DNA from: a bacterium
Lineage (GTDB): Bacteria > JAJVIF01 > JAGGVT01
Assembly (NCBI GenBank): GCA_021157815.1
Contig: JAGGVT010000192.1
Location: 1-13,909 of the forward strand
DNA: 13,909 nucleotides
Direction: 5' to 3'
Shown here: piece by piece, positions 889 to 13,113 of the stretch
Layout of the letters: every line of letters begins with the position of its first letter
Numbering within the stretch: the stretch's first letter is position 1
Notes under the pieces: generated by a model
The model's input: only the letters and a program-made list of their open reading frames with translations
What the model was told of the DNA's origin: nothing
Databases searched by the model: none
Program-made: the position numbers and the translations under genes

Positions 889-1326
889 GTGATTACATCA
901 ACAGGCGTTATCGATACCATGAACTCGATTGGTGAGCAGAATTCCTCAACACCGGGTTCGGCGGTTGACAAGACAACGTTTCTGAAACTGATGGTCATGC
1001 AGTTACAGCATCAGGACCCCATATCCCCTATGGATTCCGATACGTTTATGACTCAGTTGGCGCAGTTTAACACACTGGAACAGCAGATCAACCTAAACGA
1101 CCAATTTGAGAGTTTCCTCGGATTCCAGGCGTTGACACAGGCAACCTCAATGATAGGCAAGGAGGTCCAGGCTATCGCGTCAGGTGAAGACGGAGCCGTT
1201 TTTGTCGACGGCATAGTTGAAGAGGTTATGCTCATTAACGGCACACCTGTGCTGAAACTGTCATCAGGCGATGAAGTGCCAATCCAGATGGTTGTCAGGG
1301 TTGGAACGGAACTTGGAGATTCATAG
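889..1326 (+). CDS. flgD: Flagellar hook capping protein FlgD
   Basis: FlgD forms the temporary cap at the tip of the growing hook and allows FlgE subunits to polymerise. The start is GTG, preceded by AAGGAG at 877-882 with a 6-base spacer. The N-terminal signature is clear at residues ~29-66: DKTTFLKLMVMQLQHQDP, then a Pro-Met-Asp turn and TQLAQFNTLEQ, which is the conserved export and cap core of the family. At 145 residues it is a short form, like that of Bacillus and unlike the ~230-residue enterobacterial protein; only a short beta-rich C-terminal part follows the conserved core. It sits between fliK and the TIGR02530-type gene, and its stop codon overlaps the next gene's ribosome-binding site, so the genes are tightly linked. 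Confidence 0.93.
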   Translation: MITSTGVIDTMNSIGEQNSSTPGSAVDKTTFLKLMVMQLQHQDPISPMDSDTFMTQLAQFNTLEQQINLNDQFESFLGFQALTQATSMIGKEVQAIASGEDGAVFVDGIVEEVMLINGTPVLKLSSGDEVPIQMVVRVGTELGDS

Positions 1327-1734: not shown

Positions 1735-1792
1735 GGGAAATGCGCCGATATCACGAGCAATGGGATAGTTGCTGTCACTGATGATTAACACT

Positions 1793-1823
1793 GGGGATTC
1801 GGACCTCCATGAGGAGAGTCCCC
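1793..1823 (+). other. Imperfect stem-loop in the flgE leader
   Basis: GGGGA at 1793-1797 pairs with TCCCC at 1819-1823. Inside it, CCTC (1804-1807) pairs with GAGG (1811-1814) around a CAT loop, leaving an asymmetric internal loop. No T-run follows, so it does not look like an intrinsic terminator. It lies about 60 bases after the stop of the preceding gene and 19 bases before the tandem repeats. It could be an mRNA processing or stabilising element that separates flgE expression from the upstream genes. The structure is read by eye only. Confidence 0.4.
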
Positions 1824-1841
1824 AAGATGCTATGTCGCTGA

Positions 1842-1955
1842 ACAGCCTGAAGGTTGCATCACAGCCTGATAGCTGAAGTACAGCCTGATGGCTGATGTAC
1901 AGCCTGATGGCTGATGTACAGCCTGATGGTTGCAACACAACCTGATGGCTGAATG
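1842..1955 (+). repeat. Six tandem copies of a 19-bp hairpin-forming repeat upstream of flgE
   Basis: The consensus unit is ACAGCCTGATGGCTGATGT. Copies begin at 1842, 1861, 1880, 1899, 1918 and 1937; the third and fourth are identical and the outer copies diverge. Each unit contains CAGCC-TGAT-GGCTG, a 5-bp stem with a 4-base loop. GGCTG of one unit can also pair with CAGCC of the next across a 5-base ATGTA loop, so two folding registers compete. Variants in the first and fifth copies (GGTTG) keep the stem through a G-U pair. At the fifth/sixth junction GGTTG faces CAACC, a perfect match in the inter-unit register. The 19-bp period is not a multiple of three and the strand has stops, so it is not coding. 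The array ends 51 bases before the flgE start. Confidence 0.9.
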
Positions 1956-1988
1956 GCGGTTGGCACTATTATGTAATTGACTCAAATC

Positions 1989-1996
1989 AAGGAGGT
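1989..1996 (+). promoter_or_regulatory. Ribosome-binding site that fixes the flgE start
   Basis: AAGGAGGT is a near-perfect Shine-Dalgarno sequence. It lies 10 bases before ATG 2007 and inside the longer open frame that begins with TTG at 1977. It therefore argues that translation begins at 2007, not 1977. Confidence 0.8.
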
Positions 1997-4382: not shown

Positions 4383-7300
4383 TTAAACGGAAACTGCCAC
4401 TTCCATTGCGGATTCATCAACAGCTTCTTCAATCTGAAAGTTCTTCGTGACTTTAATTGAATTACCCACATCATTGAATTCAACATCATCCATCATCGAC
4501 CTCATAAGAAAAACACCACGGCCATGAGGCAAAAGCAGGTTCTCTTCAACAGTCGGATCAGGCAGTGCCTCGTGATCAAAACCGATTCCCTCATCCTTCA
4601 CAATCATGCTGAATTTATCATCAGTAATGAGATAGGAAATATTGATGTCCAGGTATGGGTCACCATGGTTTCCGTGTTTATGCGCGTTAGCAAGCGTTTC
4701 GTTCAAGGATAACCGGATGGCATAGATTTCGTTTCTTGATATTTTACGCTGCTTGGCACGTTCCATTATCTCTTCAATGAAATCATGTGATTCGTCATAG
4801 TGAATTACTCTGTTAATCCAGGGATTTGTCTTGATTCCAAGAACCGCCACGAGAATGTCATCGCGCATGTAACGTGCATCACCTATCGCCTCAAGCTCGT
4901 TGAAAATGTTATCTTTCAGTTCTGCGATGGATCTCAGACCATTGTTTTGAATCACATCAATCAGTCTTTCAAGGCCAAACATCTCGTTTTTGTTAATACG
5001 CGTTTCCGTTACGCCATCCGTATAGAGAATCAGGCGGTCACCCTCTTCCAATTTCATCTGCCCGGTCTGGAACATTCCATCCGGTAAAACGCCAAGAGGA
5101 ACACCGTCAACATCGATAGTAATACACTCGCCTGTGGATTCACGATATAAAATAGGAAGAACATGCCCTGCTTTCGCATAAGTCATAGTAAGGTCATCTG
5201 TGTGGATACGAGCATAGAAAGCGGTCGCGAACCAGCTCTGTTCCTTAATCTGGACTCTCAGTCCCTGATTGACAAGCGCCATGACCTTGCTCGGTGGCGT
5301 AAGGGATTTCGCCGCGTTTCGGAACATGCTTAAAATCGAGAAAGTCATGAGGGATGCTGGAATGCCCTTCGTCGCGACATCGCCAATCACGACACCGACA
5401 GATTTAGGGCCAAGCGTGAAAACATCGAAGAAATCACCCGCGAGTTCCATCGCTGGAACAAGCGAACACTCAAATTCGAGTTTACCCTGTTCGAAATTGT
5501 AGGGAATACGGTCTGATTGGAATTTCTTCGCCACCTCAAGTTGTTCAGTTCGCGCTCTTTCACGCTCGTTAATTTCACTGAATAACCTGGCGTTCGCAAG
5601 CGCGCTGGAGAGATAATTTGCAAACATATTGATGAACCGGATATCCTCCGTAGAGAAGAAATCCTGATGATGCTTGTAGAGCGCCAGAAGTCCCGGCCTG
5701 TCACGGCCTGTCAAGGGAATCCCGTAGAACGATTTATAATCCTCACCATAGACATCCCAAACCCAGTCCTCAACTTTTCCACTATCCTGCACCAGCAGAG
5801 ACTCATTAGTTTCAAGCACCTTTTGGACCCACAGGTCCTGATCGAGCTTGCTGAATGGCTTGATTTCCCATTCTTCATCAAGCGAGTAATTTATATACAT
5901 GGCGCCTTGTTCATCAGAGTAAACAAGCATCACACGATTAACATGCAGCAGGCTCTTCAGCTCTCGTAAAACACTTGGGATTAGTTTTTCCAGGTTTAAT
6001 TCACCGATTATTGTTTGGCCGATGGAATTGATTTTCTCAAGGATGTTGCTTCGCTTAATGCTGATCTCAAATAGATGAGCGTTGTGAAGAATGATTCCGG
6101 CATGCCTGACAAGGTTTCTCATGAATGAGCGTTCCCGTGATGACATCCATCCGATTTGATGTCCGCCTATCACTAGAACCGCTTTTGAATCACCGCTTAG
6201 CATGAACGGGATGAATAACAGTTCTTCAGGTTTCTTGTCAGCGGCAAAACACGTATCAAATCTTCTGCCTGACACAATGAATAACCTGTAGTCATTACAA
6301 ATTCGATTCAGATAATCGTTAAACAACGGATTTATCTCACAATGCTCCCGCCTATTGCATGACGATTTCGAACAAAACCACCCTTTCTCATTTTCGTCCC
6401 TTAGGAAGACATCCACAAATACAGTGGAATAATCGTGCTCAATCTTTTCCACAATAAAGTCAACATTTTCCTGGAAAGTTAAATTCTTGCCATTCCCATA
6501 AGAGATCATATTTATCAGAGCGAGTTCCTTGTTTCGCCTGGCAAGAATATCCATTGTCCGGCTGGCGTCCTGGTTCATCAATGCAAGCCTGTGCGAGTAG
6601 TTTTCAATCTCCAGATAATTATTCGACAAATCCTCCGCCATGCTGTTAAACGCCTTGCCAAGCATTCCTATTTCAGTTGATGAATGAATCACCACGCGAG
6701 TATCGAGTTCCCCTCTTCCTATACGCTGGACACCATCAGTGAGAATCCTTAATGGACTCAATATCAATCGAAGAAGGAGCATGAAAAGAATGAGCAGCGC
6801 ACCAAAGGTTAGGATTAACGTTACGGTCAAGCTCATTTCCAAATGCGACGCTTTTTCCATAACCTGCTGATTGCTTAATATCAATCCTGCATACAGACCC
6901 GAATCACCAATTGGGACGATGGATATTTTCCGATTTCCGATGCTTGCGTTAAAGTTTTTTTTCACGGAATCAGAATGCTTCTTTCCCATAGACTGCATGC
7001 TGATTTCCAGTAACCATTCATTGAATCCGCTGTTTGCGAGTTGTGATCTTTCTATGGCTCTGCCTTCAGAGGAATAAAGCGGATTCCCATTCTCATCGAA
7101 GATAAACACTTCACCACCATCGGATGTAAACGCTTCTTTCAGGTAACCGCCAATCTGATTGACTGGTCCGAAATAATCAATCGGGCCCTCGAATTGATCG
7201 TCGGTTTGCTGGATTTCGCCTATAAGTTTTTCGGCATTACTTGCTGCCAGCCTGGCTAATCTGTCGCGATACTCATTACTCTCCCTTTCAACAATTCGTG

Positions 7301-7439
7301 TTACCTGTCCACTAATCGCGGAAATATACAGAGCGCCGCTGAAAAACAGCAGGCAGTAGGTCGTAATGACAATCACCGATGAAAGGCTGTGCCATTTCGC
7401 GCCTTTTTGAGACCGTTTTTTAAAAAAACTTATTCTCAT
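4383..7439 (-). CDS. Membrane sensor with HAMP, two GAF-like regions, SpoIIE/PP2C phosphatase and anti-sigma-type kinase
   Basis: This 1018-residue signalling protein has a Lys/Arg-rich cytosolic start, TM1 at ~20-42, an extracytoplasmic sensor region (~45-195), TM2 at ~203-226 and a HAMP linker at ~227-280. A first GAF-like region (~310-455) and a second (~465-620) follow. The SpoIIE/RsbU serine phosphatase lies at ~640-870, with GDFFD (668-672), GDVATKG (686-692), AGH (757-759), LYTDGVTE (805-812) and the final DD at 860-861; these include the expected metal-binding aspartates. The C-terminus (~880-1000) is a GHKL kinase of the RsbW/SpoIIAB type: N-box with NE at 913-914 and N918, DEGIGFD (949-955) and GRG (973-975). 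By family knowledge the two catalytic parts would remove phosphate from, and add it to, a STAS antagonist. A GG-rich ribosome site is very close to the ATG (AAGGA, 1-base spacer), but no better start precedes TM1. The first GAF-like region carries five cysteines. The natural signal is unknown. Confidence 0.9.
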   Translation of the reverse strand: MRISFFKKRSQKGAKWHSLSSVIVITTYCLLFFSGALYISAISGQVTRIVERESNEYRDRLARLAASNAEKLIGEIQQTDDQFEGPIDYFGPVNQIGGYLKEAFTSDGGEVFIFDENGNPLYSSEGRAIERSQLANSGFNEWLLEISMQSMGKKHSDSVKKNFNASIGNRKISIVPIGDSGLYAGLILSNQQVMEKASHLEMSLTVTLILTFGALLILFMLLLRLILSPLRILTDGVQRIGRGELDTRVVIHSSTEIGMLGKAFNSMAEDLSNNYLEIENYSHRLALMNQDASRTMDILARRNKELALINMISYGNGKNLTFQENVDFIVEKIEHDYSTVFVDVFLRDENEKGWFCSKSSCNRREHCEINPLFNDYLNRICNDYRLFIVSGRRFDTCFAADKKPEELLFIPFMLSGDSKAVLVIGGHQIGWMSSRERSFMRNLVRHAGIILHNAHLFEISIKRSNILEKINSIGQTIIGELNLEKLIPSVLRELKSLLHVNRVMLVYSDEQGAMYINYSLDEEWEIKPFSKLDQDLWVQKVLETNESLLVQDSGKVEDWVWDVYGEDYKSFYGIPLTGRDRPGLLALYKHHQDFFSTEDIRFINMFANYLSSALANARLFSEINERERARTEQLEVAKKFQSDRIPYNFEQGKLEFECSLVPAMELAGDFFDVFTLGPKSVGVVIGDVATKGIPASLMTFSILSMFRNAAKSLTPPSKVMALVNQGLRVQIKEQSWFATAFYARIHTDDLTMTYAKAGHVLPILYRESTGECITIDVDGVPLGVLPDGMFQTGQMKLEEGDRLILYTDGVTETRINKNEMFGLERLIDVIQNNGLRSIAELKDNIFNELEAIGDARYMRDDILVAVLGIKTNPWINRVIHYDESHDFIEEIMERAKQRKISRNEIYAIRLSLNETLANAHKHGNHGDPYLDINISYLITDDKFSMIVKDEGIGFDHEALPDPTVEENLLLPHGRGVFLMRSMMDDVEFNDVGNSIKVTKNFQIEEAVDESAMEVAVSV

Positions 7440-11842: not shown

Positions 11843-12658
11843 TTATTCCAGTTTCATCAGTGCCTTTTTTGCCCTATCGCTGAATTCCACAATATCACTT
11901 TCCGCCACGCGTTTATAGTATTTCCTGGCTCTTTCAACATCACCAGTTTCAACAGACCAGTCCGCCAAATCCAGCCAGCTGAGCAAATCATCAGGATAGA
12001 CAACAAGGAAAATAGCCAGATATTCACGCGCTTCATCAATTTCACCCTCAGAATACAATAAATCTGCAAGCCTTCGATAAAGCAAAGCGTTGGCGGGTTC
12101 AAGTTCGGATGCTTTCCTGTAATACAGTTTCGCCAGTTCCTTTTTGTCGCCGTCCGGCGGATTATAGCCTTCCACCGTTATCATGTTGCCTAGCTGAAAA
12201 TATGCCTCGGAGGATAGAATTTCAGAACCGCTTTCAGCAATATCCAAAAGGTCCTCGTATGCTTTGTCCTTCTCATCGTCCTTATATGCTGCAAGAAGCA
12301 AGGCACGGTCAAGGCGCGCTCGTTCAGCAATCAGTAAATCATCACCTGCGATATACTTCTCAAGAACATTGATTGCGTCATCAATCATTCCCTGATTTTC
12401 ATATTCCTGAATAAGCTGGAATGCAACAGTATAATCAATGGGATTCTCTTTGTGTTCGTTCTCAAGCCTCTTGAGATTGCTTTTTGCTTCGGCGGAATCG
12501 TGTTTTTCGGATTCAGTTATCGAATGAGAATCCGAAACGGATGCGTCTGCCTTTGAAACTTGTGAATCGCCGGTGGTTTCACTGGCGCATGAAATTAAAA
12601 CACACGTTGCAATCAAAGGGATTATCAAGCGAATAAAGCGGTACATTACCATCGACAT
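11843..12658 (-). CDS. TPR-repeat lipoprotein
   Basis: This 271-residue protein has a hydrophobic signal (~8-23) and a lipobox LISC with Cys24, so it is predicted to be lipidated. A Ser/Asp/Glu/Lys-rich linker (~25-60) is followed by tetratricopeptide-like helical hairpins to the end. The clearest are around YENQGMIDDAINVLEKYI, ALLYRRLADLLYSEGEIDEA and LLSWLDLADWSVETGDVERA. Such proteins act as envelope scaffolds, for example in pilus or outer-membrane assembly; no specific partner can be named. ATG 12658 overlaps the stop of the STAS gene by one base (TGATG), indicating translational coupling. TTG at 12661 is an alternative start, as are the ATGs at 12652 and 12646. No clear Shine-Dalgarno sequence was found. 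Confidence 0.85.
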   Translation of the reverse strand: MSMVMYRFIRLIIPLIATCVLISCASETTGDSQVSKADASVSDSHSITESEKHDSAEAKSNLKRLENEHKENPIDYTVAFQLIQEYENQGMIDDAINVLEKYIAGDDLLIAERARLDRALLLAAYKDDEKDKAYEDLLDIAESGSEILSSEAYFQLGNMITVEGYNPPDGDKKELAKLYYRKASELEPANALLYRRLADLLYSEGEIDEAREYLAIFLVVYPDDLLSWLDLADWSVETGDVERARKYYKRVAESDIVEFSDRAKKALMKLE

Positions 12659-13113
12659 CAACTGTTTAAGATGTTCTTCTGCAGGTTGTTAATTGCATCT
12701 TCCTCATCTTGAAAAATCCTGAAGACTGAATCCAAGTGAGTAATCTTGAAAAGGTTGCTGACATTATTAGATGGATTAATTATCCCCAGTGAACCCGCAT
12801 TCTGTATGCATGCTTTCAATCCACTGACAAGAATACCCAACGCTGCTGAATCCATGAACCTGACCTTTTCAAGGTCCATAATAATATTGTAATACCCGGT
12901 ATCAACCTGATCGCGAAGTTTCTCTTTTAAAAACGATACATTGAAACTGTCGATATCACTTTGCGGACGGATAATTGAAACATTATCCCTTATCTGCACA
13001 TCGATATTCATAGCTCGCATTCTCCGGGTTGATGGGTAATCTTTACGCTCCCTCAGATATTCACCCAGTCTGGATTCAATCATATTTGATTCTATCAAAT
13101 TTTCGCTCACCAT
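12658..13113 (-). CDS. STAS-domain anti-sigma factor antagonist (SpoIIAA/RsbV type)
   Basis: Proteins of this family bind and sequester an anti-sigma kinase when unphosphorylated, and are switched off by phosphorylation of one serine. The STAS domain spans ~35-145: MNIDVQIRDNVSIIRP, then SDIDSFN, a helix, YNIIMDLEKVRFMDSAALGI, SLGIINPS and a final THLDSVFRIF. RFMDSAALG aligns with the FMDSSGLG phosphosite of SpoIIAA, so Ser89 is the predicted target. From ATG 13113 the protein has 151 residues and a polar 34-residue N-terminal extension, with AGAGG 4 bases upstream. Met35 (ATG at 13011, with GGAG 10 bases upstream) would give a 117-residue protein of normal family length. The choice between the two starts is open. 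It is translationally coupled to the TPR lipoprotein gene. Confidence 0.88.
   Translation of the reverse strand: MVSENLIESNMIESRLGEYLRERKDYPSTRRMRAMNIDVQIRDNVSIIRPQSDIDSFNVSFLKEKLRDQVDTGYYNIIMDLEKVRFMDSAALGILVSGLKACIQNAGSLGIINPSNNVSNLFKITHLDSVFRIFQDEEDAINNLQKNILNS

Follow-up and report, generated by a model that had tools for sequence, protein, structure and literature searches.

The 272-nt gap between flg_new and the flagellar hook gene flgE in a bacterial contig (JAGGVT010000192.1; the window, 13,909 nucleotides) was found to carry a conserved RNA hairpin, P1, and an array of 19-bp tandem repeats (Table 1). P1 and a second hairpin, P2, which lies 3' of it in many other bacteria, were shown by sequence comparison to be a conserved structured RNA located between flg_new and flgE. 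On balance, if only by a small measure, we favor the reading that flgE is controlled post-transcriptionally at P1 and P2, with flg_new as the probable reader of this site, and that the array is a tolerated spacer. The gap would then be a structured mRNA leader with P1 as its conserved core.

In the window, P1 has the architecture TGGGGATTC-GGA-CCTC-CAT-GAGG-A-GAGTCCCCA, with the GGA bulge on the 5' side (1801-1803) facing an A at 1815, and its predicted folding energy alone is -19.4 kcal/mol (z -3.3). Three genomes of the same phylum, each from another family than the source, were used for comparison (G001, G002, and G003). The block TTCGGACCTCCNNNAGGAGAR is common to the window, G001, and G003 and has a perfect match nowhere else among 385 genomes. 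In each of these sequences, the flanks of the block are paired, and the pairing is kept by compensatory changes (GGAUU/AGUCC, GGUU/AGCC, and GGUU/AACC). The flg_new-flgE gaps of G001 and G003 are 252 nt and 264 nt long, contain no tandem arrays, and have further downstream helices in common, with double changes. G002 has no flg_new, a 66-nt gap before flgE, and no P1. A model of the full leader, R1, matched the window over P1 alone (19.2 bits); it was run on four genomes, and P1 beyond flgE leaders was otherwise checked by sequence pattern. Matches to the P1 core with one mismatch in four other genomes were judged unrelated (open reading frame lists without a flagellar gene), and P1 was not found in viral contigs.

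A covariance model of the TTCGGACCTCCNNNAGGAGAR block built from the window, G001, and G003 (R2) also matched flgE leaders of Lachnospiraceae. Therefore, flg_new loci were collected by a profile search, which found them in 70 of the 385 genomes, and the gaps downstream of them were retrieved. R2 matched 24 loci (E ≤ 0.5, 196 kb), 21 of which were not in its training set. The model rebuilt from these loci, R3, matched 53 of the 74 flg_new loci, with one match apiece, on the coding strand, 3' of the flg_new stop and 5' of the FlgE start; our script had misplaced the FlgE start in L060 and L177 and the upstream frame in L148 and L167. The R3 match in the window, which belongs to the training set of this model, covers 1788-1824 (39.5 bits, E 7.5e-9). 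On visual inspection, many of the remaining flg_new loci have variants of P1, among them GGC or GGU bulges and interrupted stems. The loci with P1 come from at least 38 families by genome handle, besides the named Lachnospiraceae and a Solirubrobacteraceae metagenome-assembled genome. Most members have 18-89 nt between P1 and flgE; this distance is long in the window (182 nt), G001, G003, L115, L116, and L174; in the last three, more than 200 nt separate P1-P2 from flgE. One genome, G201, has two flg_new genes on separate contigs (L133, G201:C327; L139, G201:C217), and each is followed by a P1 hairpin and then a FlgE-like start.

In the alignment of 24 P1 sequences, 96.6% of cells are paired and 8 of the 10 pairs are altered on both sides. 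The covariation score was reached by none of 500 shuffles and was lost when the partners were slid by one column. With 53 sequences, 94.4% of cells are paired, and 82 are double-changed compared to 18.6 in shuffles. Since these alignments were fitted to a model, the independent support comes from an unfitted descriptor that runs from a stem through GGA, an apical stem with its loop, and A to the closing stem. It matches 22 of 44 leaders, compared to a mean of 0.41 over 256 bulge combinations and 5 for the runner-up. The window also satisfies this descriptor. At its inner end, the outer stem closes with U-G, U-A, or C-G, which suggests RNA rather than a DNA operator. The bulge begins with GG in 53 of 53 sequences, followed by A in 42 and by C or U in 11; the CC/GG of the apical stem is conserved, and the opposite purine is A in 39 and G in 14. 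These extensive compensatory changes in homologous leaders place the leader under RNA-level selection. The first-pass annotation of the window had attributed such selection to the array, for which it was not supported: none of G001, G002, and G003 has the array, and the conserved part of the leader is P1.

P2 was found in 32 of 42 longer leaders, compared to a mean of 3.0 and a maximum of 7 in shuffles, and the shortest leaders lack it. Its loop reads GANNGAY, typically GAnYGAYnGA, while its stems vary freely. P2 is not recognizable in the window, where the array occupies that interval. The sequence AATTGACTCA at 1973-1982, directly 5' of the Shine-Dalgarno sequence, resembles the P2 loop, with no supporting stem seen, and is possibly a P2 remnant or a chance likeness. 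At L137 (G182:C82, minus strand, ~1759-1930 of the reverse strand), the entire P1-P2 module is present twice in tandem, which suggests that the element duplicates as a unit; the arrangement at L143 (G316) is similar. G001 and G003 also have a third junction-like structure downstream of P2, P3 (ACCGG...CCGGU), with compensatory changes (L060:3625-3685 and the matching stretch of L061). The window has no P3, and none was seen by eye in the compact leaders.

P1 was found to accompany flg_new. R3 (E ≤ 1) detected no P1 in 17 flgE loci lacking flg_new by profile (198 kb), and the difference is also seen within clades (G002 compared to G000, G001, and G003; Butyrivibrio L033 compared to Lachnospiraceae L024, L025, and L028). 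TIGR02530/PF12611 is named in NCBIfam and Pfam merely as a flagellar protein; flg_new of the window scores 106.7 bits against the TIGR02530 model, which has a cut-off of 83.2 (NCBIfam). The structure of its core (residues 51-130) was predicted with a mean predicted local distance difference test score, per 10 residues, of mostly 83-93. When this prediction was compared with known structures using VIA-align, chains of RelE, ParE, HigB, YoeB, and YafQ made up nearly all of the top 33 rows, at a moderate Z of 4-5.9 (up to 5.9, with 71 residues at 3.4 Å). Pfam gave weak DUF4258 matches in five of nine members (best E 0.0012), one weak profile match was to the T4 RegB endoribonuclease, and a sequence search of the PDB with flg_new gave no match. 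Twelve residues are invariant in 33 sequences; among them, S51, H53, R57, R61, K83, T108, T121, and D124 are no more than candidates for a ribonuclease active site. Going by the predicted fold and the weak profile matches, flg_new may resemble the RelE/ParE/HigB toxin superfamily and RegB. It differs from them in being a lone gene of a flagellar operon with no antitoxin partner seen and in its low sequence identity (~10%). It is conceivable, if short of probable, that flg_new has a RelE fold, binds or cleaves RNA, and is specific for P1/P2 in the neighboring flgE leader, and that the pair constitutes a widespread, previously unrecognized post-transcriptional checkpoint of hook synthesis.

According to the reading we favor, P1, together with P2, folds in the operon mRNA, as the covariation shows, and a protein would recognize the invariant GG(A) bulge, the opposing purine, and the P2 loop. 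This protein may be flg_new, whose gene lies directly upstream, given the co-occurrence and the predicted RelE/ParE-type fold. Binding or cleavage would adjust flgE translation or mRNA stability relative to flgD and flg_new, and the supply of hook protein could in this way be matched to assembly. In the source lineage, a tandem-duplicated 19-bp palindrome would fold into a long hairpin that separates P1 from the ribosome-binding site. Several points weigh against this reading. Most flgE loci without flg_new belong to distant clades, so shared inheritance may account for the co-occurrence of P1 and flg_new. The RelE-like Z scores are in a range where perhaps a common arrangement alone is shared, and Foldseek gave no match to flg_new at E ≤ 0.001. 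The folded part of flg_new has a median net charge of 0 and is thus not basic, which sets it apart from many RNA-binding proteins and is mildly against RNA binding. Also, P1 and P2 show no obvious masking of the Shine-Dalgarno sequence. Sequestration of this sequence by the CCUCC of P1 was considered and rejected, the summed pairing probability being ≤0.007 in three leaders.

Alternatively, P1/P2 could be a processing or stability element, either an RNase site or a protective hairpin, that uncouples the flgE mRNA from the genes 5' of it and needs no dedicated regulator. P1/P2 is intercistronic, 18-89 nt 5' of the flgE start in most loci, and the two hairpins would flank the point where a weakly needed product gives way to a strongly needed one. 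However, the bulge, the opposing purine, and the P2 loop letters are kept across distant phyla, which implies specific recognition, and general RNases leave the absence of P1 at loci without flg_new unexplained. We consider this explanation unlikely.

It is rather improbable that P1/P2 is the target of CsrA-FliW, a translational repressor and its flagellar antagonist, instead of flg_new. Each of the four genomes of the phylum has csrA and fliW, neighboring by coordinates, and P1 carries an invariant unpaired GG(A). In addition, CsrA co-precipitates flgE mRNA in Campylobacter jejuni (PMC4894983 Table 1), which was counted in favor of CsrA. The CsrA consensus is A-N-GGA within a hairpin loop (PMC4894983), whereas the GGA of P1 is an internal-loop bulge after CU, CC, or UC, and in 11 of 53 sequences its A is replaced by C or U. 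Moreover, G002 has csrA and fliW yet lacks P1, and CsrA leaves P2 and the link to flg_new unexplained. The flagellin leaders under CsrA-FliW control (hag and flaA) are similar in having two hairpins with GGA before a flagellar structural gene, but P1 differs from them in its internal-loop GGA without A-N and in having the hook instead of flagellin as its target.

The array was confirmed as six 19-bp units at the site in the flgE leader where the first-pass annotation had placed it, and Pfam and NCBIfam bore out the flagellar operon around it. Tandem Repeats Finder reported a period of 19, 5.9 copies, and a score of 114 over 1842-1952; read as six full units, it ends at 1955. The source genome is a draft of 221 contigs and the size of the array depends on the assembly. 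No second array was found in the rest of the 3.2-Mb genome using a two-unit pattern with up to three mismatches, and the sole single units with one mismatch outside the array sit within long open frames. Three units match the 19-mer at ≤3 mismatches, with a chance expectation of 0.01. The array is confined to a single locus, and its unit is not dispersed over the genome. It is like repetitive extragenic palindromic (REP) and tandem palindromic intergenic repeats in its short palindromic tandem units within an intercistronic gap, but many intergenic copies are expected of dispersed repeats of the REP type, in contrast to the one locus seen here. Copies 1 and 5 both carry GGTTGCA(T/A)C, suggesting a duplication inside the array. 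An origin of the array in the G001 and G003 P3 stem was rejected, as their local alignment was not significant (equaled by 31 of 300 shuffles); their sole common trait is CAACC, equally far from ATG. Elsewhere, G003:C398 (L061:4648-4753), a contig that also carries the flagellar operon, has a 33-bp tandem repeat of 3.2 copies with 98% identity.

Each unit had been described as a 5-bp hairpin, which is correct for copies 1, 3, 4, and 5 (with one G-U pair in copies 1 and 5) and incorrect for copy 2, which has 4 bp and a C-A mismatch, and for copy 6, which is interrupted by A-C. The predicted optimum is a single long hairpin of -47.1 kcal/mol, with units paired 1-6, 2-5, and 3-4, compared to -34.2 kcal/mol for six separate small hairpins. 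It may be lengthened by the two flanks of the array, although the evidence for this duplex is weak (-12.2 kcal/mol; 2.3% of shuffles equal it). In the stems, units 1 and 5 carry a C-to-T substitution, and units 2 and 6 carry a G-to-A substitution. The changes in units 1, 5, and 6 had been proposed to tend to preserve pairing, but the substitutions do so no better than random transitions: with four random stem transitions, 31% of trials fold equally well. The true order of the units folds worse than ~96% of permutations. Tuning of the FlgE level by copy number also found no support, since the predicted accessibility of the Shine-Dalgarno sequence and start codon is nearly constant at 0, 2, 4, 6, 8, or 12 units. 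The most plausible reading of the array is that of a hairpin spacer in the place of P2, specific to this lineage and mostly tolerated, and not that of the regulatory element.

A function of the array in itself, as an RNA rheostat or as tandem DNA operators for a sigma-54 activator, was judged very unlikely. The units are palindromic, the array folds 4.7 standard deviations below shuffles, TTGGCAC lies directly 3' of it at 1957, and the genome has rpoN. However, TTGGCAC is not followed by the -12 GC of a sigma-54 promoter, and an exact site is found nowhere in the operon. The random-like substitutions, the nearly constant accessibility, and the absence of the array from the three relatives also speak against it. 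A leader peptide (..SDLPEES..) encoded by the conserved block is scarcely credible: the window and G003 have a short open reading frame in the same frame, but in G001 this frame lacks a start codon, the block does not vary at third codon positions among the three, and members from other phyla are alike in a structure with covarying stems and not in a peptide.

Termite-flg (RF01729) and flg-Rhizobiales (RF01736) are structured RNA motifs tied to flagellar genes and are confined to the termite gut and Rhizobiales, respectively. Both are listed in PMC2864571. The leaders tested match neither, and P1 differs in its spread over many families. A search with Rfam 15 gave no family match to the leaders tested at E ≤ 1 to 3, the sub-threshold matches being implausible microRNA, small nucleolar RNA, and long non-coding RNA families. 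The literature search, which did not cover a 2017 list of 224 structured RNAs, found nothing on TIGR02530 or on an RNA in flgE leaders. P1 is thus new relative to Rfam 15 and the literature searched.

Table 1. Features of the flgE operon and leader in the window
Feature	Position	Strand	Evidence
fliK	1-843 (5' end beyond window)	+	Pfam (Flg_hook, FlgD, FLgD_tudor set for fliK/flgD)
flgD	889-1326	+	Pfam (Flg_hook, FlgD, FLgD_tudor set for fliK/flgD)
flg_new, small flagellar protein, TIGR02530/PF12611	1336-1734	+	NCBIfam TIGR02530
P1 hairpin	1792-1824	+	Models R2/R3, covariation
Array 5' flank	1825-1841	+	Predicted pairing with 3' flank, lengthens long hairpin (weak)
Tandem array, six 19-bp units	1842-1955 (starts 1842, 1861, 1880, 1899, 1918, 1937)	+	Tandem Repeats Finder, folding
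Array 3' flank	1953-1970	+	Predicted partner of 1825-1841 (weak)
flgE Shine-Dalgarno sequence GGAGG	1991-1995	+	Direct reading
flgE, flagellar hook protein, 767 aa	2007-4310	+	Pfam and NCBIfam FlgE matches

Outside the leader, a large HAMP-GAF-SpoIIE phosphatase, which has a HATPase domain at its C terminus, is encoded convergently to flgE (4383-7439, minus strand), and a STAS-domain protein is encoded at 12658-13113 (minus strand). These two may be a partner-switching module flanking the flagellar operon.

The best-known cases of post-transcriptional control in flagella concern flagellin and FlgM, and a dedicated, widespread post-transcriptional control of the hook would be new. An RNA element at one fixed position beside TIGR02530, in so many families, raises the question of whether flg_new reads P1/P2. 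If it does, a toxin-type fold would have been repurposed as a one-target regulator of flagellar assembly.
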